Source of the DNA: Cellulomonas sp. PhB143
GTDB taxonomy: Bacteria; Actinomycetota; Actinomycetes; Actinomycetales; Cellulomonadaceae
Reading direction: 5' to 3'
DNA length: 64,000 nt
Assembly (NCBI RefSeq): GCF_003752595.1
Contig: NZ_RKIJ01000012.1
Span: forward strand, 310,001-374,000
This document shows, in pieces, positions 49,702 through 64,000 of the stretch. The notes below the pieces were generated by a model. The model searched no databases. It was not told the DNA's origin and saw only the letters and a program-made list of their open reading frames with translations. Position 1 is the first letter of the stretch; each line of letters starts with the position of its first letter. Both the position numbers and the translations under genes were made by a program.

Positions 49702-49976
49702 GCCACCCCTTCCCCTCGTGCTCGTCGCCCGGCGCCTGGGCCCGGACGGGCCGCGACAGACCTCGGTCGGACTACCCGATCGTAACGACACCGCTCCCGC
49801 GCGGGCGTCCGGGCACGCGGCAGAGCCTGTGGAGGTGCCGTGGACGACGGCGGTCGGGTGCGGGGTGGGGGGTTGGCCGTGGGTTGGCCGGGGTGGTGCG
49901 GTGGCGCACGTCACCGCTGTGGCGGCTCCCGCGGGTGCCGAGACGACGCGGTCACCGTGGTATGTTTTCTCGGCGC

Positions 49977-50059
49977 GCGCGAGTGGCGGAATGGCAGACG
50001 CGCTGGCTTCAGGTGCCAGTGTCCGAAAGGGCGTGGGGGTTCAAGTCCCCCCTCGCGCA
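49977..50059 (+). tRNA. tRNA-Leu(CAG)
   Basis: Class II tRNA: acceptor GCGCGAG pairs with CTCGCGC, the anticodon stem CTGGC/GCCAG holds TTCAGGT with anticodon CAG, and a long variable arm plus GGTTCAAGTCC T-arm follow. CCA is not encoded. The accessory island begins right after it, the classic integration location, though I found no duplicated tRNA 3' end. Confidence 0.96.
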
Positions 50060-50064
50060 CAGTG

Positions 50065-50410
50065 GGCTGTTCTCGGTTTCGAGAGCAGCGAACTTCGAAA
50101 AGTCCCGGCCGGGATACTCCGGCTGGGACTTTCGTCGTTTCTGGGCGGTTCGTGCGGTCCTGCGCGGTCTCGCGACGAGGTGATGCGCGACGGCGCGGAC
50201 TGCGTGGTGCTGATCGGGCTGGCTCGGCGGGCGGTCGGGACGATTTCGGCCGTTCTGGGGCGTACTGACCTGTCCGGCGGTGCTGCCGGTGTTTCAGGTG
50301 GTCGGGTTGTGGCGGGTGTTGCCGGCCGTGCGTGGTGGTCCTCGCCGGGGCTTGGTACGCGAGCGGGTGGTGTAGCCGATGGGCCGGTCGTCTATGGGCT
50401 CGCCGAGGTA
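50065..50410. repeat. Left copy of a 345-bp imperfect direct repeat
   Basis: This stretch, from five bases past tRNA-Leu through the terminator and the last about 38 codons of the transposase gene, recurs at 60747-61091 with roughly nine bases in ten identical. The two copies bracket the mobile unit and the methylase-HerA-NurA-DUF3644 cassette. Confidence 0.9.
50101..50130. terminator. Bidirectional hairpin between tRNA-Leu and transposase gene
   Basis: AGTCCCGGCCGG pairs with CCGGCTGGGACT with one mismatch over 12 bp, loop of six bases. The right-hand repeat copy has the perfect version. Confidence 0.75.
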
Positions 50411-51997
50411 CGACTGCCAGGGTTCGTTGATGCCGGCGGCGACGTGCCATCGGTAGAGCTCGCGGGCGTTGTAGGCGGCGAGGGTGAACGCGAGGAGCAG
50501 TGCGGTGGGGTTGAGTCCGCGGACGCGGATGAAGCCGTGGTTGACGTTGGCGTCGTGGACGCGGATCTTCGAGTTGAGGCTCTCGATGCGGTTGCGGCGG
50601 TGGTAGGAGCTGGCCCAGGCGGTGGACTGCCAGGGCAGGCGTTGGCGGTCTCGTTCGTGCAGGGTGTCGGGCACGGTGAGGGTGATGCCGCAGCCGCAGG
50701 CTGAGCCCGGGGTGCAGGTGGTGGTGGGTATGTCCTGGCTACGCCGCATCGAGGCTGGCGTGTTGGGGCAGCGGACGTGGCCCGCCAGGGCCGGTCCTTT
50801 GTAGCGCTGGGTGCCCAGGGCGTCGTTGCGGCGGCTGTGCCGGGTGAATCGGAAGGGTTCGCGGGCGTCGAAGAGCTCGCGGACACGGGCATTGTCGCCA
50901 CTCGTCTGGCCGATCCGTGGTGGCTCGAGCTGGCGCAGGTTCGTCGGGATAGCGGCGCTGTACAGGCTGCCGTCGATCCACAGGGTGCCGGGGACGGGGC
51001 CCGGGCGGGTGCCTCGCTGTGACGAGTGCAGGTCGAAGACGACCTCGACGCCGCGGTTTCGCAGCGGTCGGGCGAAGTGCTCGCCCGTGGCCATCGTGTA
51101 GCCGCGGTCGAAGAGCGCCTCGGTGACGTCGCCGTGGCTCATGACGGCGTCGACCAGGGCGAGAGCTGCTCCGATGCGGTCGGTCACGCCGGGGCGCAGT
51201 GCCATGCCGGCGCACAGCAGAGGGACCTCATTACCGGTGCCCTCGTCTGCGATGTAGGTCGCCAGGTGGAGTTCGAAGCCGACGTAGAACTCGGTGGGGC
51301 GCCTGTTGGTGGCGGTGCGCTTGGCCCAGCGCGCTTCCCTGTCGGCGCAGATCCGTCCGTCCGGGTGTAGGGCGTCATGCGGGTAGGCCGCGTAGTACGA
51401 CTCCACGTCGGTTCCGTCGATCGCGACCGCGGGTGTGCGCGGGAACGTGGTGGGCAGACCTGCTTGGACGATCGTGGAGTGGATCTGCTCGGGAGTCAGT
51501 GCTAGGGCCGGGCACGACGTCGGGCACGGGTCGATCTCCCCGGTGTCGGCGTTGACCCACACGGTGTGGTCGTGGTCGACGCTCACGCCAGCCCTGGTGG
51601 CGGCGCTCAGAGCGTGGAGGCGGTCGAGGATCCTCTTGTCCAGGCCCGTACGGGCGTCGCTGGTAGCGACCCATTCCTCGGGGATCCCGAGCTGGGCGCG
51701 GGCCCGTGGTGACATCTCCGCCACGGTGCGAGCGACCGACGCGATGGTCAGCGTCGCCGGGTTCGTCAAGGTGTGGAAGAACAGGATGCGGGCCAGGAGG
51801 GCGTAGCTCAGCAGGGCAGGACGGCCAACTCGCTTGGTGCACGCATCGAGAAGGATTGTCAGGGTGGGCGTGTTCGACATGGCGATGGCCCGGTTGATCC
51901 GTTGCTGCTCGGTCATGCGGTCGGGATGGTAGTCACGACGGCTGGCACCGGTCGGCGTGTGCTGCGGTCGGCGTCTGCGAGTCGTCTCCCTGGTCAC
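50294..51997 (-). CDS. DDE-type transposase-like protein
   Basis: The 567-residue protein has candidate catalytic acids in AIDGTDVESYY (about residues 194-197), ALFDRGYTM (297) and NRIESLNSKIR (472), a plausible DDE triad of an IS4/IS1182-like enzyme. A Cys cluster (HVRCPN through CGCGI) sits between the second and third acids. The C-terminal segment IGYTTRSRTKPRRGPPRT recurs in the right-hand repeat as a remnant of a second copy. The GTG start overlaps the stop of the tyrosine-recombinase-like gene (GTGA), so the two are translationally coupled, which is unusual for a simple insertion sequence. IS family not resolved. Confidence 0.7.
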   Translation of the reverse strand: MTRETTRRRRPQHTPTGASRRDYHPDRMTEQQRINRAIAMSNTPTLTILLDACTKRVGRPALLSYALLARILFFHTLTNPATLTIASVARTVAEMSPRARAQLGIPEEWVATSDARTGLDKRILDRLHALSAATRAGVSVDHDHTVWVNADTGEIDPCPTSCPALALTPEQIHSTIVQAGLPTTFPRTPAVAIDGTDVESYYAAYPHDALHPDGRICADREARWAKRTATNRRPTEFYVGFELHLATYIADEGTGNEVPLLCAGMALRPGVTDRIGAALALVDAVMSHGDVTEALFDRGYTMATGEHFARPLRNRGVEVVFDLHSSQRGTRPGPVPGTLWIDGSLYSAAIPTNLRQLEPPRIGQTSGDNARVRELFDAREPFRFTRHSRRNDALGTQRYKGPALAGHVRCPNTPASMRRSQDIPTTTCTPGSACGCGITLTVPDTLHERDRQRLPWQSTAWASSYHRRNRIESLNSKIRVHDANVNHGFIRVRGLNPTALLLAFTLAAYNARELYRWHVAAGINEPWQSYLGEPIDDRPIGYTTRSRTKPRRGPPRTAGNTRHNPTT

Positions 51998-52962
51998 GGG
52001 CGGGTGACCTCCGCGACGAGCTCTGCTTCGTCGGGTTGGGGCATGAACTTCATGACGTGACTGAATGACTTCCAGGACGTCACACCAGCCATCTGCGAGA
52101 GCGCGTTGAGGTGGACACGGTTGTCGAGGTGCGCCAGCATCCAGGTCGCCCGAAGCCGGTAGGTCTTGAGATCGGGACAGTCGGGCGGGCGTTCGATGTG
52201 CTCCAGCATGTGGCCCAAGGGACCGCGGTCCCAGTCCTTGGCGACGAACCCGAGGATCGTCGCGCCAGGATCGTCTTCCTTGATCTGTGCCAGGGTCACG
52301 TCGTAGGGCGGCGAGATAGGGATCGTGCGCGGGTGGTCGCCGTGAACGACCAGGCAGAGGTGACCGTGACGTTCGACGAGGTCGTCGGTCATGGCGTCGC
52401 GGGCCTCGCGAGGGTAGAGGCCCGCGCCAAGACCCAGGGCGAGCAGCGCGGTCAGTCGTCGTCTTCTGGATGCTGTGCGCTGTTGTGCAGCAACCTCGAG
52501 GAGGCGGCTGACCTCGGCCGGCGTATAGGGGACGATCGTGTACTCGGCGCGCAGCTGGTGCGGCAGTGGTGCCCAGGGTGCTCGGCGGGTCAATGCGGTG
52601 GAGTAGCGCCGCAGGTCAGCACGCCGTGTTGCCCTCGAGGATTCGGCCAGGTGGGTACATCCGACGGCGATGTACCGTTCCACCACGTCGGGGCTGAACA
52701 TCGCCTCGCGATCCAGCGGGTGGCCCTGACGGTGGGCCCACACGACGAACTGACTCAGGGTCCGCATCGATTCTGTCGCCCGTCGGGGCTCGCTCGGATG
52801 CAGGTCCAAGGCGACCGCGCGGGTGAACTCGGCGACGGGCGCCCAGAAGTCCGCGCGGATCGCGTAAGGGGTGTACGCGCGGACACGGGCCTTGGCAAGA
52901 CGGGCGTCGTTCTCGGCGTTGCGGTTGACGGCGTCAGTTCCAGAAGAGCAGTCTGAAGGCAT
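51994..52962 (-). CDS. Tyrosine-recombinase/integrase-like protein with degenerate active site
   Basis: The 322-residue protein resembles phage integrases. An N-terminal SAM-like core-binding region (WAPVAEFTRAVALDLHPSEPRRATESMRTL) is followed by a catalytic-domain-like half. The first arginine region is LALGLGAGLYPREARDAM, and TYRLRATWMLAHL stands where HxLRH is expected. The end, SWKSFSHVMKFMPQ, lacks the usual nucleophilic Tyr. It may therefore be a DNA-binding partner rather than an active recombinase. ATG 52962 was chosen over a longer frame starting at 53061 because GGGGGTCC precedes it. It is followed by the overlapping transposase. Confidence 0.65.
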   Translation of the reverse strand: MPSDCSSGTDAVNRNAENDARLAKARVRAYTPYAIRADFWAPVAEFTRAVALDLHPSEPRRATESMRTLSQFVVWAHRQGHPLDREAMFSPDVVERYIAVGCTHLAESSRATRRADLRRYSTALTRRAPWAPLPHQLRAEYTIVPYTPAEVSRLLEVAAQQRTASRRRRLTALLALGLGAGLYPREARDAMTDDLVERHGHLCLVVHGDHPRTIPISPPYDVTLAQIKEDDPGATILGFVAKDWDRGPLGHMLEHIERPPDCPDLKTYRLRATWMLAHLDNRVHLNALSQMAGVTSWKSFSHVMKFMPQPDEAELVAEVTRP

Positions 52963-53093
52963 AGAAGGACCCCCATCGAAACGCGGGACTTTCTTGCAGC
53001 GGAAGTAGTGGTCCGCTGATGCGAGGCGATCGGGCTCGGGAGTTGCCGCTCCTGGGCCCATTTTCGCGCCTTCGGCGCCCTGCGCCGACTGGC

Positions 53094-53330
53094 TCAGCCC
53101 ATGTCGGCTCCGCCCTCGTCGTCGAGAGCCTTCGCCAAGAGGTCTGCGTGTACCGCCGTCACTGGCCGGCCTGAAGCACGAGCAGTCTCGTACAGGCGGA
53201 GCGCGAGGTGGGCCGGAATGCGAGCGTCGAACCGCACCGTCTCGTCGGGCGCGTAGACACGGTCGCGCGATGACGGGCGCCCCGTCCGCGCAGCTGGGAT
53301 GACCACCGCGCTGTTCTGGTTCTTCATCAT
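53094..53330 (-). CDS. Small ribbon-helix-helix-like protein
   Basis: The 78-residue protein contains TVRFDARIPAHLALRLYETARASGRPVTAVHADLLAKAL, which fits a strand-helix-helix (RHH/MetJ-Arc-like) DNA-binding fold. GGAGG sits five bases before ATG 53330; the adjacent ATG 53327 is an alternative. It is the first gene of the three-gene mobile unit and could be its transcriptional regulator. The family is inferred from pattern only. Confidence 0.6.
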   Translation of the reverse strand: MMKNQNSAVVIPAARTGRPSSRDRVYAPDETVRFDARIPAHLALRLYETARASGRPVTAVHADLLAKALDDEGGADMG

Positions 53331-53585
53331 CACCACCTCCGTCGAAACGACCAAACTGTAAGAACCGGATCCGTAGATCCGTCAGTCGGTTGGTCGGACC
53401 GAGCGAAGGAGGTGGTGAGACTCCTTCAGCGCCGCGAGCCGATGGCTCAGATCAGCGGCGTGCCCCCGCACCAGGTACGGGCAGCCATCACCAAGGTATG
53501 CCCACTGGCGTCCAGAGTCACGAGCGGCACGCGCAGTTGGAAGCGGAACAGCGGACCATGGAGTCGGACGTCTCTGGAGGTGTCG

Positions 53586-54075
53586 ATGAGTCCACGACCC
53601 ATGCTGATCCTCGACCTCGACGGAGTGATCAGCCCGTACGGGAGCGAAGCGAAAGACGGGATGGCGGTTGCGCGCGTGGGCGGATACCGCCTGCTCTACC
53701 GCCCAGACGTCATCGCAGGGCTCAACGCCCTCAACAAGGAGGGAGACGTCGAGCTTCGATGGCTGACGAGCTGGGGTAGTGACGTACGCACTCACGTCGC
53801 CCCAGCACTCGGCCTCGACGACTTCCCGATGCTCGCCGAGGTGGAGAGGAACGCGACGGATCGAACGTGGTGGAAGTTGCGATCCGTTCTCTTGCACCTG
53901 CGAGGGGGCACGAGGTTCGCTCGCTTGGATCGATGATGACCTGAAGCCGACACGTCGGGCCCGAGTCCGCCGGGCCTACGGGACCGGACAGTGCCTACTC
54001 CTGCAACCAGATTCGAAACTAGGCATCAGGGCAACAGAACTCGATCAGGTGCGGACGTTCCTCGCACGCGCGTAG
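53586..54075 (+). pseudogene. HAD-domain hydrolase broken by a 4-bp duplication
   Basis: Translation starts well (GGAGG five bases before ATG 53586) with MSPRPMLILDLDGVISPYG, the HAD catalytic DxDG motif, and continues as WLTSWGSDVRTHVAPALGL. At 53918-53925 the tetranucleotide CGCT is tandemly duplicated. The frame then ends at 53936, while the next frame carries the missing end, LAWIDDDLKP and LLLQPDSKLGIRATELDQV. Removing one CGCT restores FAWIDDDL. A recent inactivation, a phase-variable state, or a sequencing error are all possible. Confidence 0.8.
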
Positions 54076-54369
54076 TTCGCTTCGACGTGGACCTTGCGCC
54101 GGGGGGGGGGGGAGTCGTCAGGCGTTCGCCGAACGAACTCGCGCGATGCTCGGCTCGTGATCGCCACGCCCGGGAACCGGTCCGGAAATGCCGCGCCGCC
54201 TCGATAAGTCCTCCGCGATCCGGCACACCTCCTGCGCGGTTGAGCGTGACCGCGGCCGTTCCTCAGAATGCTTGGCCCCGGCGCGGTCGACTGGACAGCG
54301 CCCCCAACTACGCCCGATCAAGTGATGCCAACGAAGCCAGCCACGTCGCCGGTCGGCTCGACCGGCGGC
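54076..54369. other. Debris region with poly-G run
   Basis: No gene is recognisable. A run of 12 G (54101-54112) stands out. The flanks look like scrambled insertion-sequence remains and precede the IS3 fragment. Confidence 0.5.
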
Positions 54370-54585
54370 AGTACGACAACGCCCTCGCCGGGGCGTTCAA
54401 CACGCTGTTCAAGGCCGAGCTCGTGCGCTACGAGGGCCCGTGGAAGTCGATCGACGACCTCGAGCTCGACACCGCGGAGTACATCGACTGGTTCAACCAC
54501 CGACGGCTGCACGGCGAGATCGGCCTCATCCCACCCCGCCGAGCTCGAGGACAACTACTACCGTAACGACCACGCTCCGGCTACT
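54370..54585 (+). pseudogene. IS3-family transposase (OrfB) C-terminal fragment
   Basis: YDNALAGAFNTLFKAELVR and KSIDDLELDTAEYIDWFNHR then RLHGEIGLIPP are the end of an IS3-type DDE transposase, including the final catalytic glutamate region. A one-base excess in the CCACCCC run near 54535 shifts the frame before AELEDNYYRNDHAPAT. The N-terminal catalytic part and OrfA are absent, so it is a dead remnant. Confidence 0.85.
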
Positions 54586-54704
54586 TCTGCCTCGAGCCGG
54601 GTGAAACCGTCGTACTCTTCGAGCCGACCGGATGCCGTGATCACCCGCGTGCTACGCCCCGACACACACCACGTCGAAACCGGATATCGACACGTTCGAC
54701 CCTG

Positions 54705-54726
54705 GTGTCCACTAGTGTCAGGACAC
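54705..54726. promoter_or_regulatory. Inverted repeat upstream of the methylase gene
   Basis: GTGTCC and GGACAC flank a 10-base centre, and CACTAGTG (54710-54717) is itself a perfect palindrome. It lies 57 bases before the methyltransferase start, so it could be an operator controlling the cassette, or an insertion-sequence end. Confidence 0.45.
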
Positions 54727-54782
54727 AGTCCACCCAGCAGGAAGACCCGTTGAGATCCCACGTGACACACCCGAGGAGAGCC

Positions 54783-55820
54783 GTGAGCGCCGGTCCGATG
54801 ACGGCGTCGCCGATCCGGGCCGCAAGTTTGAATGAGCCGACGTCGCCGCAGCTGGGCGCGTCGCCCGTAGGCATGGAGGGTCTGATCCCGCTGGCGGGCG
54901 TGCGCCGGCCGCTACCGCTCAACACGCTCTCGCCCCTCCGGTACCCGGGCTCGAAGCGCCGCATGATTCCGGCTATTGCAGAGCTCATCGAGGCCAATGT
55001 TCCAGCACCCGAGTTGCTCGTCGAGCCGTTCTGCGGGGGAGCCAGCGTCTCGCTCGGGCTGCTTGAGATCGGCGCCGTCAAGCGAGTCCTGCTGGCGGAT
55101 CTCGATCCGCTAATTGCAGCTTTCTGGAAGGTTGCGACGACTGACACCGAGTGGCTCATCGCGGCGATGCGCAGAGAGCCGATCACCGTCGAGCGATGGG
55201 ACTACTGGCGAGCACTCAAGCCGACGGGCGCGCGCAACCGCGCCCTCAAGTGCCTCTTCCTGAATCGGACGACTTTCTCAGGGATAATCGGCGGCAACGC
55301 TGGTCCGATCGGCGGTCGGGCGCAACTCAACTACAAGATTGACTGCCGCTTTGACATGAACGGCATTGAGGCCCGACTGCGGCATGTCCGGAAGCTTGCC
55401 GACGAAGGGCGCATCGTGGGTGTTCACGAGGGCCGCTGGGAGGACTCCATCCGTGTCGCATTGGACGTCCACGCTGCCCGGGGCTGGCGAACGAAGTCCC
55501 TCGTCTTCTACATGGATCCCCCGTACATCGAGAAGGCGGGCGGGATCTACCGCCGCTCGTTCTCCGAACGCCATCACCGAGCGTTGGCGGAGTACCTGAA
55601 CGGGAGCGGCGAGCGTTGGATCCTGTCGTATGACAAGGAGCCCTTGGTCCTCGACCTCTATGGCGCGGACAAGATGCCGGAGGTCCGTCGGTTCGCGGTG
55701 CCGCACACGTACACGATGACGGGCACGAGATCGAGGCCCGTGCCGGGCCGCGAAGTGCTGTTCACGAACCTTCCCCAAGTTCCCGCCGCTCGCGGCAGGC
55801 CTGACGACACGGAGTCTTGA
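54783..55820 (+). CDS. D12-class (Dam-like) DNA adenine N6-methyltransferase
   Basis: The 345-residue enzyme has the D12-class order of motifs: PLRYPGSKRRMIPAI (motif X), EPFCGGASVSLGLL (SAM motif I, about residue 82) and MDPPYIEKAGG (catalytic DPPY, residues 245-248). It methylates adenine N6; the target sequence cannot be read. GTG 54783 with GAGGAG just upstream was preferred over the first ATG-like starts farther up. Its stop overlaps the herA start (TGATG). Methylation beside an HerA-NurA pair suggests protection of self DNA. Confidence 0.88.
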   Translation: MSAGPMTASPIRAASLNEPTSPQLGASPVGMEGLIPLAGVRRPLPLNTLSPLRYPGSKRRMIPAIAELIEANVPAPELLVEPFCGGASVSLGLLEIGAVKRVLLADLDPLIAAFWKVATTDTEWLIAAMRREPITVERWDYWRALKPTGARNRALKCLFLNRTTFSGIIGGNAGPIGGRAQLNYKIDCRFDMNGIEARLRHVRKLADEGRIVGVHEGRWEDSIRVALDVHAARGWRTKSLVFYMDPPYIEKAGGIYRRSFSERHHRALAEYLNGSGERWILSYDKEPLVLDLYGADKMPEVRRFAVPHTYTMTGTRSRPVPGREVLFTNLPQVPAARGRPDDTES

Positions 55821-57826
55821 TGAGCATAACGTCCGCCCTCCTCGCGGCCCAGCAGACTGCAACGCCCCTCGCGGCGCTTGTGAACGACGGATGCCACGCG
55901 ATCGGTGGCGTCTTCCGACTCGACTACAACTCTGCCGTCGTACTCACCGACGACTTCAGGAAGAAGCAGGCCGGTGGCGTACCCCACGGCGGGTTCCTAC
56001 TTGCCGCGGCGGGCACGCAGACCGCGGAAGGGTTCACCCTCGACGACGAGGAGCTGATCCTCCTTCGCGTGCGGGGCACGGCTCCCCTTCCGAACGAGCC
56101 AGACCTCGTACAGACGCGACTGGCCGTCGTCCGTGACGCAGGAGATTCGGGCAAGGGCTTCGACGAGGTCACCGATGAGTTGACGCGCAACGAGCTCCAG
56201 CAGTCCGCCTTCGACTGCGAGGTGATCGGGACCTTCTACACGTCGGGCAACTCAGACCTCGTCGAGTTCGGGGCTGACATCGATAACGTCGTCTCGTCAG
56301 CCAAGTACCAGGTCTTCCTCCCCTCGAAGAAGGTGCTGTCGTGGCTCGCGTCGTACCCCGAGACTGGTGAGGACGACCTACTGCCGCTCGGCGTGGTGCG
56401 CTTCTCGTCTACTCGCCGTCGGGCCCGGGCATCGGGGATCGACCAGGCGGAGGTCCGGGTACACATCGACGACTTCGTGGCGCGCAAGACCGCGGTGTTC
56501 GGCATGACCCGAACCGGCAAGTCCAACACTGTGAAGACAATCGTTACGGCTGTCCACCGCCAGAGCTCCTTGACCGACGCGCGCGTCGGCCAGCTGATCT
56601 TTGATCCTCAGGGTGAGTACGCGAACATCAACGATCAGGACAAGACGGGCCTCCGGCTCCTCGGCGACACGGCTGACCACGTGCGCGTCTACAAGGAGAG
56701 CCCCGACCCGAGCGAGGCCGTGGAGAGACCCCTTCGGATCAACTTCCTGGATGCGGCGAGCCTCCAGACGGTATGGGCCATGGTGCAGCAGGAGGTTGCC
56801 GAGTCGGCCTCAGCGGGAGCTCAGTACATGGCTGGCTTTCGCGCGGTCGATTTCGCCGTGCCTGATCCGAAAGACGTGAGCGCGCAGTCTCACTTCGAGC
56901 GCAACCGGCTCGCGTTCTACGCTCTGCTCCACCGCGCTGGAATTTCGGGCCCCCTCCCGAGTACCCGCATCATGCTGACGAACGACCTCGTGACCGAGGC
57001 CACTACCGGCCCGAAGGCGATCGCGGATGTCACGGGGTCTGGGAAGTACGCATACGTGAAGACCACCGCCGCTGCCGAGAAACTCCTTGACTGGTTGAAG
57101 TCTCAGAACGCCGATGGGAAGCTCACGGAGTCCTGGAAGCGTGACTTCGACAAGGGCGAGCTCGCCGACATCCTGAAGGCCATGGAGGGCCGGGCCGGAG
57201 ATGCTGCGATCAAGCGCCTCAAGCCGTTCCACGATCGCAACGCCATCGGCGACATCGGTGATCTCGTGTGGCAGGACATGCTTGCGGGCCGGCTCGTCAT
57301 CGTCGATCTGTCCAAGGGCAACGGCACCGTTGTTAAGACGCTGTCCGAGCGGATCGTTACGACGCTGCTCGATCGTGCTCGCGACGACTTCGCTGCGGGA
57401 AAGAAGCCACACCCCTTCCAGGTGATCGTCGAGGAGGCGCACAACCTGTTCGAGCGGGGCGCCAAGGAGGTGGCCGGGAACCCTTGGGTCCGCATGTCTA
57501 AGGAGGCGGCGAAGTACAAGATCGGACTGATCTACGCGACACAGGAGGTCTCTAGCGTGGACCAGCGCATCCTCTCTAACACTTCTAACTGGTTGGTCGC
57601 CCACCTCAACTCGGACAATGAAACCAAGGAGTTGTCGCACTACTACGACTTCAAGACGTGGGCCGAGAGCATCCGCCGAGCCGAGGACCAAGGGTTCGTG
57701 CGCATGAAGACGTACTCCGGCAAGTACATCGTTCCCGTACAGGTCGCGAAGTTCGACCACGACATGATCAACGAAGCAAGGCGGGCCTCTGGCTTGCAGC
57801 CGGTTGATCCCGCAAAGATCGCCTGA
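55820..57826 (+). CDS. herA: HerA-like hexameric DNA-pumping ATPase (DUF87)
   Basis: The 668-residue protein has an N-terminal HAS-barrel-like region. The FtsK-HerA P-loop follows, AVFGMTRTGKSNTVKT (residues 228-235 for GMTRTGKS), then LIFDPQGEYAN. Walker B is QVIVEEAHNLFERG (near 535), and the conserved ATQEVSSVDQRILSNTSNW closes the core. HerA translocates DNA and works with the NurA nuclease in end processing in archaea; bacterial pairs are linked to phage defence. ATG 55820 follows GGAG and overlaps the methylase stop, so the genes are coupled. Third positions hold more A/T than in the flanking core genes, suggesting transfer. Confidence 0.9.
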   Translation: MSITSALLAAQQTATPLAALVNDGCHAIGGVFRLDYNSAVVLTDDFRKKQAGGVPHGGFLLAAAGTQTAEGFTLDDEELILLRVRGTAPLPNEPDLVQTRLAVVRDAGDSGKGFDEVTDELTRNELQQSAFDCEVIGTFYTSGNSDLVEFGADIDNVVSSAKYQVFLPSKKVLSWLASYPETGEDDLLPLGVVRFSSTRRRARASGIDQAEVRVHIDDFVARKTAVFGMTRTGKSNTVKTIVTAVHRQSSLTDARVGQLIFDPQGEYANINDQDKTGLRLLGDTADHVRVYKESPDPSEAVERPLRINFLDAASLQTVWAMVQQEVAESASAGAQYMAGFRAVDFAVPDPKDVSAQSHFERNRLAFYALLHRAGISGPLPSTRIMLTNDLVTEATTGPKAIADVTGSGKYAYVKTTAAAEKLLDWLKSQNADGKLTESWKRDFDKGELADILKAMEGRAGDAAIKRLKPFHDRNAIGDIGDLVWQDMLAGRLVIVDLSKGNGTVVKTLSERIVTTLLDRARDDFAAGKKPHPFQVIVEEAHNLFERGAKEVAGNPWVRMSKEAAKYKIGLIYATQEVSSVDQRILSNTSNWLVAHLNSDNETKELSHYYDFKTWAESIRRAEDQGFVRMKTYSGKYIVPVQVAKFDHDMINEARRASGLQPVDPAKIA

Positions 57827-57827
57827 C

Positions 57828-59255
57828 ATGCCGTACCCGATGGAGCGGGCATCCCGGCTCGGGCACGTTCCAGTCGTCAATAGCCAGGCGGTTCGTGACG
57901 CCTTCTCTCGATGGCAGGTGGCCCAGGCGGCTCCCTCCGACCTCGGACTAGTCGAGTCCCTGTGTCACCCGCTCGAGACCCTCCCGAACGCGCAAGCATC
58001 CGACGACGTTCGTTTTGCCATCACGGTGGATGGTTCGGACACCGAGGTCGAGGCCACGCGCGAACACCCGACGGTCAAGGTGGGCTACGTCCGCGTCGCC
58101 GCGTCCTTCGTCGACCTGTCGAAGCTCCACGCCTCGGGCGTAGGCGAGTTCGTGGACCCCGCCTTGCTCCGAGAGGCGCATAAGCACGCGGCCTTCGACG
58201 GCGCGCTGCCTGGATCAGGGTTGGTCATGCCCGGCTTCACTGGCGTCGACACCTGGCGTCAGGAACTCGATCGACTGCTCGCGGGCACAAAGTTCGACGA
58301 CGAGTCCCCGCTCACGCTCGCCGACATGCTCCTGGCGTTGCACGGTACCCCGGACGCGTCCGCGACAACGATCTCCCTGCGCCGCTGCCCAACCTGCGGC
58401 GTGAAGGACGCGGAACTTCCGGGTGGCGCGATCACCGTGCCGAAGGCTGGTACCACGTGCCCTGCCTGCCAAGCCCCGGTCTTCCTTGGAGATGCGCTTC
58501 GGACGCACGAGGAGTACTTGCCCGAGGGCTCGAACCAGTCGGCGCTCACGAGGGTCATGCTCGTGGCCGAGCGGCTGACCTCCCTTGGCTACATGCAGGT
58601 TCTCCACCGCGACCCTCATGGCGCCGATGCCATGCGGCGAACCCTCTTCATCACGGACGGTCCGCTCGCGCTGCACGGTGTGGTCGCGCCGTTGAAGCGC
58701 CGCTTCCAGGACTACCTCGGTGACCTGACCGCGGCGGCCGCCGCGAGCGGAAGCCCGGCTGCGCCGCTTGTCGTCGGGGTCGAGAAGTCCGGTCGGTTCG
58801 TGGAGCACTCGGAGCTCATCAAGACCATGATCCCCGAGGGGAGCGTGATGGCCCTGTCGAGCGAGTACATCAATCGAATCACGGGCCGGCCCGCCGACCA
58901 CCAGTACGGAGTCGACGAGTTCTACGGGCGGCGATTCATCTATCGCACACGGGCAGGGAGCACGCTCGTCATCACTGTTCCGCCGCGACCGGGGATCACG
59001 CCATACGGGACCGCAGCGGGCGAGGATATCGCAAGCTATCCGACGTTGCGTCCCATCTGTGAGGTTCTCGACCGCGTCCAGACACGGCTGTACCCGAACG
59101 CGGTTATCCCTGTCGCTCTCGCGCACTCGGCCGCGTCGCTCCCGCTAGGCGTCGGTCAGTCGGTGCTTCGCGCGATGGGTCAGGATCTCCTGGGCCTACG
59201 CCGAACGACTCAGATCGTGCAGCGCGGCCCATTCCCCGGAGCCCTCAGTAGATAG
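57828..59255 (+). CDS. nurA: NurA-domain nuclease
   Basis: The 475-residue protein starts one base after the HerA stop. It has a first acidic motif FAITVDGSDTEVE (Asp 68) and a second, LFITDGPLALHGVV (Asp 277), matching the NurA catalytic pattern. The later VPPRPGITPYG and ALAHSAASL lie near the end. An inserted zinc ribbon (CPTC at 187-190, CPAC at 211-214) splits the domain, unlike compact archaeal NurA. NurA resects DNA with HerA. Operon position and the coupled methylase support a restriction-like system; the pairing itself is established for HerA-NurA, the defence role here is inference. Confidence 0.82.
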   Translation: MPYPMERASRLGHVPVVNSQAVRDAFSRWQVAQAAPSDLGLVESLCHPLETLPNAQASDDVRFAITVDGSDTEVEATREHPTVKVGYVRVAASFVDLSKLHASGVGEFVDPALLREAHKHAAFDGALPGSGLVMPGFTGVDTWRQELDRLLAGTKFDDESPLTLADMLLALHGTPDASATTISLRRCPTCGVKDAELPGGAITVPKAGTTCPACQAPVFLGDALRTHEEYLPEGSNQSALTRVMLVAERLTSLGYMQVLHRDPHGADAMRRTLFITDGPLALHGVVAPLKRRFQDYLGDLTAAAAASGSPAAPLVVGVEKSGRFVEHSELIKTMIPEGSVMALSSEYINRITGRPADHQYGVDEFYGRRFIYRTRAGSTLVITVPPRPGITPYGTAAGEDIASYPTLRPICEVLDRVQTRLYPNAVIPVALAHSAASLPLGVGQSVLRAMGQDLLGLRRTTQIVQRGPFPGALSR

Positions 59256-59350
59256 ACGGCGAACCGGCTCGGGAGGAAGGACATCTCTCGCTCGGAGCAC
59301 CGAGACAGCCGTTCCACTGCGCGGGCCTCGGCTGGCGTGGCACGGATGGA

Positions 59351-60460
59351 CTAACCGATGACCGCCTCGTCAACGTCATCCTCGCCGTCAGCATCATGGG
59401 CGCGGGTAATAGTCGGACTCGGCGCGCCCGAAGAAGGCTGCCAAGCCATGATCTTCGCGAAGACCTGCGGCTCACTCACCTTACGGACGAGGTAGTTAAC
59501 CCACGCCGGCGTGTAGACGTACTCGCCGAAGGCGTCGTTGTAGCGGCAGAAGTCCGACTTCGTCTTCTCAGGAGTCGGACTGTCGGCGGGGGGCCGGACA
59601 CCGAAGTACCGCCAGGCCTGAGTGTGCGCATGCATCGTGAACTCGATATTGACCTGTTCGCCGACCTGTTTCACGACGTCCTTCGGCCGGAGGTTCCCAA
59701 GGTCTTCCACCGGCACGTACTTGTCCTGGATGATCGTCTGGAACTGGTCCAGTGCCTCCGTCTGTTCGGGCGTGAGGTCTTCCATACGGATGAAGCTGAT
59801 GCTCGCGTCGGCCGTCGTCCGAGGGCCCTTGTGCGGCACGAGGAAGACCCGGAACTCGAACCTCTGATCCGCCAACGTGTCCGGCTGCAGGCCGGTCTCG
59901 AAGTCCTGCACCCACTCGAGCACGGCCTTTGGCACCCGGCTTCGCACCCGTTTCGCCGCCTCTACAGCTGAGTCGGTCAGCACAGACATGAACAACGGGA
60001 ATCGGAGTTCCTGTGCCACACCCTCCTCGGCCCCGAACAGTTCGACGACTGCCCTCTCGTAGTTGAGGAGCAGCGCCTGGGTCTTGCCCGCAACGAGCGA
60101 CGCGATGTCTCGCTCGTATCGGTGCTCGATGCGGTTACGGATCAGCATGAAGAACTCGACGTTCCGCCGGACCGGGTCGTGCTCAGTGAAGCGTTCCTTG
60201 AGCAACGTGCTCAGCGGCTTGTGCTTCCACTCGCCATCCTCGTGGTGGCGCACTCTCCAACCGCGCGCGTCACGGATGAACAGATCACCGTCGTCCTTTT
60301 CGGTCGCGGCCTGCAGCAGTCGGAGCCACGCCAGGTTCATGTGCACGACGAAGGCTTCAAGCTGACGCTCATTGCCAGAACGGTTGTACAGATCGACGGC
60401 GAGGCGTGCTTCGTTCTTCGAGGCCTGGAGCATGTGCCACCAGCGAGGACGGGGTGCCAT
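59351..60460 (-). CDS. DUF3644 protein with HEPN-like motif
   Basis: The 369-residue protein has the DUF3644 N-terminal pattern EARLAVDLYNRSGNERQLEAFVVHMNLAWLRLLQA. The segment VEFFMLIRNRIEHRYE carries R108-x4-H113, as in HEPN RNases. The C-terminal half (about 200-369) is unrecognised. It faces nurA tail-to-tail, so it is transcribed separately. DUF3644 genes are often found in defence islands; that it is an RNA-cutting effector is inference. ATG 60460 is used; an ATG nine codons later is an alternative. Confidence 0.75.
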   Translation of the reverse strand: MAPRPRWWHMLQASKNEARLAVDLYNRSGNERQLEAFVVHMNLAWLRLLQAATEKDDGDLFIRDARGWRVRHHEDGEWKHKPLSTLLKERFTEHDPVRRNVEFFMLIRNRIEHRYERDIASLVAGKTQALLLNYERAVVELFGAEEGVAQELRFPLFMSVLTDSAVEAAKRVRSRVPKAVLEWVQDFETGLQPDTLADQRFEFRVFLVPHKGPRTTADASISFIRMEDLTPEQTEALDQFQTIIQDKYVPVEDLGNLRPKDVVKQVGEQVNIEFTMHAHTQAWRYFGVRPPADSPTPEKTKSDFCRYNDAFGEYVYTPAWVNYLVRKVSEPQVFAKIMAWQPSSGAPSPTITRAHDADGEDDVDEAVIG

Positions 60461-60746
60461 GGCCTCAGCCTATGGAGTTGTCCGGCGGGGCAACAGCGCG
60501 ACCGGCTGCGGTAGTCGCGTCGCCACTCGACCGTGGAGTCGTCGCCGACTCGCTGACTCGAAGCGCTGCAACACAACTCGCCACGCTGACCGTCGCGGGG
60601 CGGGGGCTCTCCGCATCGTCACGGCACGCTCTCCTGGTGTGCCGCAGGAGCGCAGGTGTGCCTGGCGGGACCCTGCTGGTGTGCCTGGCCCCTCGCATCG
60701 CGCAGGCCTCGTGCTGGTCAGCGAGTTTCCGGAACCACCCACGTGA
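60461..60746. other. Spacer with insertion-sequence-end motif
   Basis: No gene is convincing. It contains the DUF3644 promoter side and the first copy of the GGTGTGCCTGG repeat unit (60654-60734). Confidence 0.5.
60654..60734. repeat. Insertion-sequence-end-like repeat, left copy
   Basis: AGGTGTGCCTGG, 12 bases, GGTGTGCCTGGC, 24 bases, then CTGGTCAGCGAGTTTCCGGA. The same parts with exactly the same spacing recur at 63919-63999. Repeated short units near an end are typical of transposase-binding termini such as those of IS21-like elements. Confidence 0.7.
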
Positions 60747-61091
60747 GGCTGTTCTCGGTTTCGAGAGCAGCGAACTTCGAAAAGTCCCGGCCGGGATACT
60801 CCGGCCGGGACTTTCGTCGTTTCTGGGTGTTCGTGCGGTCCTGCGTGGTCTCGCGGCGAGGTGATGCGCGACGGCGCGGCCTGCGTGGTGCTGATCGGGC
60901 TGGTTCAGCGGACGGTTGGGACGATTTCGAGCGGTTCTGGGGCGTGCTGATCTGTCCGGCGGTGCTGCCGGTGTTCAGGTGGTCGGGTTGTGGGGGGTGT
61001 TGCCGGCCGTGCGAGGTGGTCCTCGTCGGGGTTTGGTGCGCGAGCGGGTGGTGTAGCCGATGGACCGGTCGTCTTTGGGCTCGTCGAGGTA
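60747..61091. repeat. Right copy of the 345-bp direct repeat
   Basis: It corresponds to 50065-50410: perfect terminator hairpin, then the reverse-coded end of a DDE transposase (IGYTTRSRTKPRRGPPRT). The transposase body is missing, replaced after 61091 by IS256 debris. It marks a former second copy of the mobile unit. Confidence 0.9.
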
Positions 61092-61470
61092 TCGGCGTGA
61101 CCACCCGCGGGGAACGCGACGTCCTCAGGATCTGGACCGGCGACGGCGGCGAGGGCGCGAAGTTCTGGCTCAGCGTCCTGACGGAGTTCAAGAACCGGAG
61201 GCGTGGCGGACGTGTGCATCGCGGTCTGCGACGGTTTCGAGGGCCTGTAGGAAACGACACGACCCTGTGGGAGCACGCGCAGGCCCAGACCTGCGTGTTC
61301 CACCTGATCCGCAACACGTTCCGCTACGCCGCCCGGCAGGACTGGGGACAAGATGTCCCGGGACCTGAAGCTGATCTACAGGGCGGTGAACGCCGAGCAG
61401 GCCGAGGTTCGGATGACGACTTCGCCGAGGAATGGGACGCCAAGTACCCGGCAGTGGGGACGTGTGACTG
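61092..61470 (+). pseudogene. IS256-family transposase fragment with several frameshifts
   Basis: GERDVLRIWTGDGGEGAKFW, VADVCIAVCDGFEGL, TCVFHLIRNTFRYAARQDW, KMSRDLKLIYRAVNAEQAEV and DDFAEEWDAKYPAV are consecutive pieces of an IS256/Mutator transposase, but they lie in different frames. Both ends of the gene are missing. It cannot make a working protein. Confidence 0.85.
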
Positions 61471-61572
61471 AGCCGGCGCCCGGCGGGCGATCGCCGATTT
61501 CACCCGACGCCAGCCCTACCACGTGACGCGCCGCTGACATGATTGCCCTCGAGGCCGACGTGAAGGAGCCCC

Positions 61573-63768
61573 GTGGACGCCAAGACGTACCCATTGCAGG
61601 AGATTCTGAAGCCGGAGCGCCGGTACATAATCCCGACGTTCCAACGCGACTACGAGTGGACGCTTGACGGTCAGTGGAGACTCCTGTTCGAGGACCTGGA
61701 GAGCACGGCAGACAAGCTCCTTGATGCACGTTCAAGCCAGGTCGAGAACACCGTCGTCCTGAAGAACAGGGAGCAGAGCGTCACCCCGCACTTCATGGGG
61801 GCGATCGTCTGTGCGAGCCTGCCGTTCGCGACGGGAAGTGTCGCGCTCCGCTCGGTGATCGACGGTCAGCAACGCCTCACCACAATCCAGCTCCTAGTGC
61901 GAGGGCTGCTGGACGTGCTCCAGGAAGCCGAGTCGGACAGGCGCAGATCAGTTCGCCGCATGCTCTTCAACCCCGACGACGTCGTGGACTCGCCTGAAGA
62001 GGTCCACAAGCTCTGGCCGCGACGACGGGATCGCGAGGTCTGGCCCACCGCGATGGCAGATGCGGTCCCTGCCTACTCCGGGAGCAAGGACCACCTGTAC
62101 CTTCAGGCGCGCCGCTATTTTTCGGAGGCCGTCCGGCAGAGTGCGCTCAATGACGCAGGCGAATTGGATCCCACGCGTCTCCAGGCGTTGGCGGACGCAT
62201 TGTCGAGCCTGTTCAAGCTCGTCGTAATCGATCTTGAGGAAAACGACGACGCGCAGGTCATCTTCGAGGTGCTCAACGGCCGTCAGACGCCGCTTGCAGC
62301 GATCGACCTCGTGAAGAACCTTCTCTTCCTCCGAGGCGAACTTGCCGACGAGGACGTCGACCGACTTTACGACACGTACTGGGCGGACTTCGACGACGAC
62401 TGGTGGAAGTCCGTCGTCGGACGAGGCCACGCGGCGCGGGGCCGGCGCGATGTTCTGCTCTCGGTCTGGCTCACTGGTGTCTCCGGCTTCGAGGCGAACG
62501 TCAGTCACCTCTACCGGGAGGCGAGGGAGTACTTGAACGGTCCTAGCGCCCCGGACACCGAGCAAGTTCTTCGTGAGCTCAGCGAGTACGCGAAGGCCTA
62601 TCGCGCCATCTACGGCGTTGGAACCGTCGATCCGCGTTTGCGCACGTCGTACGACAGGCTCAACGAGTTCGAGATCACGACTGCGGTGCCGCTCCTTGCC
62701 TGGTTGCGCATCGCTTCGCTCGAGGTGGTCAGCCTCGACGACGAGGTGCGTGCTGTCCGTGCAGTCGAGTCGTGGGCGATGCGGCGTTCCTATGTGGGCT
62801 GGCAGACCCGCGGGTACGGCACCCACCTGGCTCGCGTCTTGCGTGTCGCGATGCGCGCGGCCGAAGCAGGTCGGAACGTCGCGGATGCGGTCGTCGACTC
62901 GCTCAAGGACGGGACGCTCGCATGGCCAACGGACGAGGACGTGCGCGGAGCGTTCCTGTCGCGGCCGTTCTACAACGCCGTCGCGCAGTACCGAATCCGC
63001 GCGTTGTTCCGAGCGATCGACAGCCAGCTCCGCCATGAGGACCCGCACGAGCCGACCGCGACGATTGGGTTTGACGACCTGCAGATCGAACACGTCTTGC
63101 CGCGCAGTTGGATGGCGCATTGGCCACTGACGGACCCCACGGGCAACCCCGTCGACCCCGACTCCGCAGACGCTGCAGCGGCACAGATGCTGCTCCAGCG
63201 CCGACAGGTACTCGACCGACTGGGCAACCTCACTCTCGTCACGCAGGCGTTCAACCTCGACGTGTCCAACCTTGGGTGGTCCGCGAAGCGTCCGGAGTTC
63301 GCGAAGCAAGGCGCACTGGTGATCAACAAGGGCGTCGCGGCCGTCCCAGAGTGGAACGAGGTCGAGATCAACGCACGAGGTGTCTTCCTCGCGGACGTGG
63401 CTACCCGCGTGTGGCCCGACCCGTTCGCTCTTGGGGCGTCAGGTCGCCTGAACTCTGCGCCGACACCGACCAGACCCGCCGCGATCACTGCCGAGCCAGC
63501 CGCGGTAAGGACGGCTACCCCGGTCCCCGGCCAACCAGTTGGTTCCATCGCTCCCTTGGTCATTGCGCTCGAGACCGTGGAGATGCAAGTGGCCGACGCC
63601 GATGCACCGTGGCCCGGCTGGGGTGTAGTCGTGAAGTGCGTCGGCGGCAGCGCCTACCTCAATCGCACCAATGTCGACGTGCGGAGCGAACAGGCAGGAA
63701 AGGTCGCCACGTGGGCTGCGGCCGGCGTGGGCGAGGAACGGGGCAACTATCTGCGCATCTCGCTGTGA
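61573..63768 (+). CDS. DUF262-DUF1524 protein, GmrSD-type (type IV) restriction enzyme
   Basis: The 731-residue protein fuses a ParB-like DUF262 domain to an HNH-type DUF1524 domain. DUF262 carries PTFQRDYEW at 22-29 and VIDGQQRLTT around residue 97. DUF1524 carries QIEHVLPRSW near 505 and RLGNLTLVTQAFN. This is the single-chain GmrSD arrangement, whose characterised members cut DNA with modified cytosines. A further C-terminal domain of about 75 residues (GWGVVVKCVGGSAYLNR to the end) follows a Pro/Thr linker and is not part of the usual pair. GTG 61573 has GAAGGAG four bases upstream. It is separated from the HerA-NurA cassette by IS debris. Confidence 0.88.
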   Translation: MDAKTYPLQEILKPERRYIIPTFQRDYEWTLDGQWRLLFEDLESTADKLLDARSSQVENTVVLKNREQSVTPHFMGAIVCASLPFATGSVALRSVIDGQQRLTTIQLLVRGLLDVLQEAESDRRRSVRRMLFNPDDVVDSPEEVHKLWPRRRDREVWPTAMADAVPAYSGSKDHLYLQARRYFSEAVRQSALNDAGELDPTRLQALADALSSLFKLVVIDLEENDDAQVIFEVLNGRQTPLAAIDLVKNLLFLRGELADEDVDRLYDTYWADFDDDWWKSVVGRGHAARGRRDVLLSVWLTGVSGFEANVSHLYREAREYLNGPSAPDTEQVLRELSEYAKAYRAIYGVGTVDPRLRTSYDRLNEFEITTAVPLLAWLRIASLEVVSLDDEVRAVRAVESWAMRRSYVGWQTRGYGTHLARVLRVAMRAAEAGRNVADAVVDSLKDGTLAWPTDEDVRGAFLSRPFYNAVAQYRIRALFRAIDSQLRHEDPHEPTATIGFDDLQIEHVLPRSWMAHWPLTDPTGNPVDPDSADAAAAQMLLQRRQVLDRLGNLTLVTQAFNLDVSNLGWSAKRPEFAKQGALVINKGVAAVPEWNEVEINARGVFLADVATRVWPDPFALGASGRLNSAPTPTRPAAITAEPAAVRTATPVPGQPVGSIAPLVIALETVEMQVADADAPWPGWGVVVKCVGGSAYLNRTNVDVRSEQAGKVATWAAAGVGEERGNYLRISL

Positions 63769-63918
63769 TGAGCTGCCGTCCCTCACGTGAGCGCCGTGCT
63801 GGCCGGTGGGGCAGGACGCACTGGGCCGATGGAGGAGGTTCTGGTGTTCATCCCGCCTCTCAGAGATTGATCATGGGAGATGCCCCGAGCAGCCTTGAGA
63901 ACCGCCCCGATCGATGGC

Positions 63919-63999
63919 AGGTGTGCCTGGAAGGTACGGCGGGGTGTGCCTGGCTTCAGCGGTGACCGTGCATCGGGACTGGTCAGCGCATTTCCGGAA
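63919..63999. repeat. Insertion-sequence-end-like repeat, right copy
   Basis: Second occurrence of the GGTGTGCCTGG unit pattern with identical spacing, ending at the window edge in CTGGTCAGCGCATTTCCGGA. An insertion sequence may continue outside the window. The rest of 63769-64000 holds no gene that I can support. Confidence 0.7.
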
Positions 64000-64000
64000 T

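Follow-up and report, generated by a model that had tools for sequence, protein, structure and literature searches.

Positions 310,001 to 374,000 of contig NZ_RKIJ01000012.1 from Cellulomonas sp. PhB143 (64,000 nucleotides; hereafter, the window) harbor a cassette of three intact open reading frames (ORFs), all on the forward strand at 54783-59255, which encode a D12 adenine methylase, a HerA-type ATPase, and a NurA-like nuclease. The first gene (54783-55820, GTG start) specifies a D12-class N6-adenine DNA methyltransferase of 345 residues, recognized by Pfam, PADLOC, its motifs, and its relatives. The second (55820-57826, ATG start) specifies a DNA pump of the HerA/FtsK type with 668 residues, assigned by Pfam and by sequence, profile, and fold matches in the PDB. 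The third (57828-59255, ATG start) encodes a NurA-fold nuclease of 475 residues, assigned by an AlphaFold2 model and Foldseek. The methylase stop codon TGA (55818-55820) shares one base with the herA ATG (55820) in the sequence TGATG, and a single base lies between the end of herA (57826) and the nurA ATG (57828). The initial annotation had described just this three-gene coupling, and both the coordinates and the intactness of the reading frames agree with it; the motifs it named (DPPY, GMTRTGKS, and VIVEEAHN) and the zinc-ribbon cysteines of NurA are likewise all located in the translations. Relative to the Cellulosimicrobium copy, the genes are under purifying selection, with ratios of nonsynonymous to synonymous substitution (dN/dS) of 0.12 for the methylase, 0.06 for HerA, and 0.07 for NurA. 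All three are thus constrained, and the cassette is more than a chance arrangement. The observation is confirmed as real: the D12 methylase is intact and is accompanied by a HerA pump and by a nuclease that has the NurA fold and carries a zinc ribbon.

The identity of the third protein was settled by its predicted fold, which resolved what sequence searches could not. The window NurA matches no model in Pfam, PADLOC 2023, or NCBIfam, and a single-sequence search of the PDB returns no match. Its profile gives weak and mixed PDB matches, with an unrelated release factor first (0.028) and TdpB next (0.04, or 0.46 for its best single stretch). The NurA Pfam domain PF09376 is not found in the window protein, and is matched above the cut-off in a Tolypothrix relative (4e-5) and under it in the Deferribacter one (0.04). 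TdpB is the nuclease of TdpAB, which we take to be the restriction half of the phosphorothioate-based TdpABC, where TdpC makes the mark. The AlphaFold2 model, built from the window protein and 18 relatives (mean predicted local distance difference test score, pLDDT, 88.4), has TdpB as its best Foldseek match (9.0e-9; Z 20.4 over 322 residues at 4.9 Å), followed in the Foldseek order by the NurA proteins of D. radiodurans and S. solfataricus. By Z score, the NurA structures of Sulfolobus (SsNurA, Z 14.8), Thermococcus, Pyrococcus, and Deinococcus come after TdpB, at 14.8 and below. These matches to TdpB and NurA structures uphold the name NurA that the protein had been given at the outset. The sequence carries DGS at residue 68, CPTC at 187, CPAC at 211, and DGPL at 277. 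In a 19-row alignment, D68 and G69 of motif I, GPL of DGPL, and K320 are invariant, and D277 is present in at least 90% of the rows. The zinc-ribbon insert (CPTC … CPAC, residues 187-214; 58386-58469, forward strand) has all four cysteines invariant in the 19-row alignment A4 and three of the four in the 18-row alignment A1.

The HerA protein belongs to the Pfam family DUF87 (4.6e-15), with the Walker A motif GMTRTGKS at residue 228 (56501-56524) and the Walker B motif VIVEEAHN at residue 535 (57422-57445). Its best PDB match is TdpA, both by sequence (8.3e-20) and by profile (5.5e-28). When its model is compared with structures, TdpA (Foldseek 4.9e-25; Z 30.3) is tied with the HerA structure 8xau (Z 29.3). 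The NCBIfam models of antiphage HerA proteins score far under their cut-offs (50.5 of 800 bits), and PADLOC 2023 offers distant models only. As TdpA and TdpB are the top matches of the two partners, the pair is, in its predicted structures, TdpAB-like.

The methylase falls in the Pfam family MethyltransfD12 (PF02086, 6.3e-18), with DPPY at residue 245 (55515-55526) and PFCGG at residue 82. Its best PADLOC model is PD-Lambda-5_B (1.6e-59), to which the methylase of a related Vibrio phage cassette is also closest (5.5e-120). The D12 methylases of the relatives form at least two distant groups, one resembling PD-Lambda-5_B and the other fitting different type II methylase models.

Relatives, given here as numbered loci (L), were gathered by similarity to HerA or NurA alone, ignoring the methylase, from genome contigs (16 loci), plasmids, phages, viral contigs, and 396 genomes of the window's phylum, to which the whole-genome search was confined. 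A profile for each of the three families served to assign their genes, and part of the methylases was checked by Pfam. After removal of duplicates, 35 HerA-NurA pairs are retained including the window, 33 of them with readable flanks, and a DNA methylase adjoins 30 of these 33. The actinobacterial and other linked pairs comprise the window, L005-L019, L036, L038, L039, L041, and L042; further linked pairs lie on a haloarchaeal plasmid (L021), a Deferribacter plasmid (L023), a Vibrio phage (L024), and viral contigs (L044-L047, L050, and L051). The initial annotation had named homologous pairs lacking a methylase as what would refute its reading; with a methylase beside 30 of 33 assessable pairs, the refutation fails in this sample. 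Left out of the count are duplicates (L035, on the L011 contig; L048 and L049, records of L046 and L045; and a second Vibrio phage with a 99.8% identical NurA), short versions of other loci (L001-L003 and L025-L034), weak matches outside the family (L004 and L043), a NurA-like gene without HerA (L040), a Halorubrum locus with a HerA fragment beside an insertion sequence (IS; L096), and L053, a larger stretch of the plasmid of L022. L020, where a methylase and HerA are present and the sequence stops before nurA, is outside the 33, while L044, with a nurA truncated by the contig end, is counted as a pair.

D12 genes are rare in the phylum, with 45 Pfam matches in 149 genomes. Among the 150 DUF87 matches listed, a D12 gene lies within 10 kb of five of the six places occupied by HerA of this family, as compared to one of the 144 others (Fisher p 6e-8). 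At that lone D12-adjacent place outside the family, the D12 match is under the family cut-off, and the sixth family place carries an N6_N4 methylase in place of D12. The family is uncommon in the phylum, the NurA profile being found in 10 of the 396 genomes, one match being weak and one having no adjacent HerA. A viral scan using the window NurA found nothing; alignment-based scans and scans with the Vibrio HerA did find viral copies. To judge from gene neighborhoods, the coupling of a methylase to HerA-NurA is real.

The class and position of the methylase vary among the 30 linked pairs, with 27 D12 enzymes and three unrelated N6_N4 enzymes, encoded upstream in 14 cases, downstream in 13, and convergently in three. 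Tests of whether three HerA clades also hold as clades of methylases reject all three (p 1.3e-13, 2.7e-11, and 4.2e-7); because the groups were picked after viewing both trees, the p values should not be read as blind. All three clades are starred in the HerA tree, the deep branches of which are unsure owing to long branches, and one HerA protein, that of L008, is itself a mosaic. The Leucobacter relative (L006) is 76% identical to the window in HerA and 74% in NurA, but only 38-39% in the methylase, which also lies on the opposite side of the pair. At the DNA level, homology to Leucobacter spans 55857-59197, covering HerA-NurA only, and homology to Cellulosimicrobium (L005) spans 54711-59241, covering the cassette only out of the compared 49901-64000. 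These comparisons indicate that methylases are swapped between HerA-NurA chassis.

HerA has a variable insertion of its own at residues 312-468 (56753-57223, forward strand), which is mostly helical in the model. Among the relatives L005-L020, at least three types can be told apart, about 19-32% identical to one another; the flanks are about 63-78% identical. The HerA of Gordonia L008 has its N-terminus, like its NurA, nearest the group of the window and its insertion nearest that of Streptomyces L011. From these alignments, the insertion seems to be swapped as a whole, independently of the methylase. In an exploratory comparison of non-independent pairs, insertion identity and methylase identity correlate at 0.65 (105 pairs, close set) and 0.51 (153 pairs); after removal of HerA N-terminal identity, the partial correlation is -0.06 (105 pairs). 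A role of the insertion as a methylation reader co-varying with the methylase thus finds no support. In DUF4297-HerA, an insertion subdomain reportedly seals off what is presumed to be the entry for DNA into the ring (accessible part of PMC11291478), and we assume that it is the same region as the insertion of the window HerA.

The cassette lies in a setting with signs of mobility. The initial annotation had placed it next to a tRNA-Leu gene amid IS debris; the IS genes and the tRNA are there, but the tRNA (49977-50060) is 4.7 kb upstream and does not adjoin the cassette. The interval holds genes for an IS1182-like transposase and for weakly XerD-like and HAD-type proteins, as well as an IS3-type remnant. 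The HAD-type (HAD_SAK_2) gene at 53412-54075 appears split over two overlapping frames and is possibly frameshifted. A directly repeated sequence of some 345 nt (repeat families D1-D4) begins 5 nt after the tRNA (left copy, 50065-50410, forward strand) and recurs 10,681-10,682 nt away (right copy, 60747-61091, forward strand) with 93-99% identity by segment. It brackets 10.7 kb including the cassette, reaches into the end of the IS1182-like transposase gene, and may hint at how the island was assembled. The GC content, about 73% up to tRNA-Leu, drops to 65% behind it and has returned to 76% about 2 kb past the window end. Behind this tRNA-Leu, the sister genome G116 carries the first 81 nt of the left repeat and other genes, and no NurA match is found in this genome. 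The far side of the island does not align with the next 15.7 kb of the sister, so that the latter does not represent a clean empty site.

Other copies of the cassette are also associated with mobile elements. In the Vibrio phage (L024; PQ189371.1, 1-6052), it is located between genes noted as integrase and excisionase, and its HerA, NurA, and methylase are all labeled hypothetical protein. Scanning two neighbor ORFs for each of five viral contigs identified an integrase in L045 and L051, a terminase in L047, and neither in L046 and L050. An integrase precedes the cassette in Leucobacter, and in a Propionibacteriaceae genome it is followed by an N6_N4 methylase and a TnsA-like nuclease protein that together probably form a type III pair. 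On the Deferribacter plasmid (L023, 8303-10082), herA is split by an IS200/IS605-TnpB element, the methylase and nurA being full-length.

Two further genes neighbor the cassette. A DUF3644 protein (59351-60460, reverse strand; Pfam, and PADLOC candidate PDC-S19) is encoded convergently with nurA, and DNA similar to its gene is found on Arthrobacter and Rhodococcus plasmids. A GmrSD-type (DUF262/DUF1524) restriction protein is encoded at 61573-63768 on the forward strand (Pfam 6.4e-28 and 2.3e-20). Their membership of the cassette is not supported, as neither occurs in any relative by tblastn of L001-L023, DUF3644 being met only in the copy of this genome itself. A UvrD helicase-PD-(D/E)XK fusion gene is directly downstream of the cassette in L008 (9569-12319) and L014 (10517-13297), with 30% mutual identity. 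It was discarded as a fourth component because it stands beside these two loci only. Three cyanobacterial plasmids with HerA-NurA pairs (L022, L094, and L095) have a gene for a small helix-turn-helix regulator immediately upstream, while AbiTii, NERD, or STAND-like genes follow downstream; they possibly constitute a methylase-free, regulated branch. In L053, a gene with no annotation beyond 'methyltransferase domain-containing protein' is located 7 kb past nurA.

It is proposed, with a probability of about 70%, that the cassette is a mobile defense system resembling restriction-modification, in which interchangeable methylases mark self and HerA-NurA destroys unmarked DNA. As expected of its enzyme family, the methylase would mark its motif in the host chromosome with N6-methyladenine. 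HerA would form a ring and feed double-stranded DNA to a NurA dimer for cutting, as the folds and the solved TdpAB and HerA-NurA complexes suggest. On the strength of the gene linkage, the machine would attack unmarked phage or plasmid DNA upon entry and spare marked self DNA. This restriction-like reading is strengthened by the TdpAB match, the swapping of methylases, the carriage on phages and plasmids, and the neighboring GmrSD and DUF3644 genes. The interpretation given in the initial annotation is thus partly supported.

Several observations weigh against this proposal. The three cyanobacterial plasmids have no DNA methylase annotated within 6-8 kb of HerA-NurA, and a Pfam scan of eight unnamed neighbors of these pairs found none, which means that HerA-NurA can exist without a methylase. 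Two pairs cut by contig ends lack a methylase in the readable flank, L052 over 5.9 kb, judged by family profiles, and L037 over 1.9 kb, where a beta-lactamase-like gene is found. They are outside the 33; in the worst case, with both counted as lacking one, the figure is 30 of 35. When 102 neighbor ORFs of 17 loci were scanned with PADLOC, without a control, only scattered defense matches were obtained. In addition, a Thermus operon comprising NurA-like, FtsK-HerA, and N4/N6 methylase genes, the TdtA operon, is tied to DNA donation in the accessible part of PMC5365140. The main rival follows from this operon and the roles put forward for TdtA and its NurA-like partner, namely that the cassette is a DNA-transfer machine in which HerA pumps DNA out of a donor, NurA trims it, and the methylase protects the transferred DNA. 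The location of many relatives on plasmids or viral contigs would suit such a role. Still, it is considered unlikely in view of the best fold match being TdpAB, of the lack of a relaxase or type IV secretion system among ten ORFs scanned around the cassette by Pfam, and of the copies near integrase or terminase genes in phage records (L024, L045, L051, and L047), where donation makes little sense.

A different possibility is that two adjacent units are present, HerA-NurA being an abortive-infection nuclease and the methylase either its antidote or the counter-defense of a mobile element. The swapping of methylases and the three pairs devoid of one are compatible with this idea, and DUF4297-HerA degrades both host and phage DNA according to the accessible part of PMC11291478. 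However, a single functional unit is indicated by the adjacency of the genes, whose stop and start codons overlap in the window, and by their occurring together in 30 of the 33 pairs, and the two-unit explanation is regarded as quite improbable. Lowest in probability, and very unlikely, is a repair pair that resects breaks as in archaea or Deinococcus, with a methylase that is unrelated or tunes repair. The folds are the same as those of repair HerA-NurA, yet the patchy spread of the NurA profile (with its 10 genomes, one weak, in the phylum), the near absence of D12 at the 144 other HerA-type genes among the matches listed, the failure of the Pfam scan of ten ORFs to find Mre11 or Rad50, and the sister genome G116 without a NurA match all argue against it.

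Within the restriction-like proposal, a site-specific reader inside HerA-NurA seems unlikely, because unrelated methylase classes accompany related HerA-NurA pairs and the insertion shows no independent link to the methylase. Self could instead be sensed if methyl groups in general hold up the pump or the nuclease, or if the methylase tells HerA-NurA where to load. A bolder generalization, put forward tentatively and judged doubtful, is a broad restriction-modification class in which a processive pump-nuclease is agnostic to the mark, unrelated methylases supply the mark, and methyl groups act as stop signs. If so, the class would form with TdpAB one "pumping restriction" lineage that accepts base or backbone marks, and the HerA insertion would serve another role, such as trigger recognition or the evasion of phage inhibitors.

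Should the restriction-like proposal hold, it would describe a mechanism of restriction in which a swappable methylase steers a repair-type pump and nuclease, and base methylation and phosphorothioation would be alternative marks for one machine family. Genes now recorded as repair nuclease NurA, DUF87 protein, or hypothetical protein would have to be reassigned. It also opens to testing the question of whether methylation by itself is enough for a DNA translocase to recognize self, with no sequence-specific nuclease involved. Among the literature matches listed, with most subscription journals outside the coverage, no title or abstract describes a methylase-HerA-NurA cassette as defense; PMC10855626 and PMC5737866 name NurA-HerA in their reference lists only.

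The gene set is not unprecedented, the nearest published set being, as far as the accessible part of PMC5365140 goes, the Thermus TdtA operon. Located in an integrative and conjugative element, this operon encodes a type IIG restriction enzyme, a NurA-like protein, TdtA of the FtsK-HerA family, and an N4/N6 methylase; donation depends on TdtA, and its efficiency on the NurA-like gene (PMC5365140, same part). By gene description alone, NurA-like, HerA-family, and methylase genes are shared with the cassette, whereas the added type IIG enzyme, the gene order, and the assigned role in DNA donation differ. Related HerA pumps serve in defense in Nezha (SIR2-HerA), DUF4297-HerA, DndFGH, and other HerA/FtsK capture systems (accessible parts of PMC10853773 and PMC11291478). 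The effector domains of these systems are different ones (DUF4297, SIR2, or restriction endonuclease), in contrast to the NurA-fold partner found here, and the accessible main text of PMC10853773 does not mention NurA. PD-lambda-5, an E. coli prophage system (accessible part of PMC9519451), is linked to the cassette through PD-Lambda-5_B, the best match of the methylase. The HerA and NurA proteins scanned match no other PD-Lambda-5 model.

The HerA-NurA repair complex of Sulfolobus, Deinococcus, and Thermococcus has the same two folds as the cassette pair. In archaea and Deinococcus, HerA-NurA takes part in break resection, and the archaeal repair operons are linked to mre11-rad50. The repair NurA structures match more weakly than TdpB (Z at most 14.8 vs 20.4), and the cassette family, unlike the repair complex, is patchy, mobile, and linked to methylases.

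The cassette would work most like TdpABC but is not counted as a member. TdpAB (structures 8wet and 8wfd) likewise combines a HerA-type pump with a NurA-fold nuclease and is the top match of both proteins, TdpB having 375 residues as compared to the 475 of the window NurA with its zinc ribbon. The two differ in the enzyme that makes the mark, a base methylase here and presumably the phosphorothioation enzyme TdpC there. No sulfur-transfer family is found among ten ORFs scanned with Pfam at 50.3-63.8 kb, a search at the level of protein families. Because the third gene encodes a D12 methylase and there is no TdpC, the cassette is not filed as TdpABC. With restriction-modification in general, it shares the genetic coupling of a methylase to a nuclease, seen in 30 of the 33 pairs and in the enrichment over other HerA-type genes.

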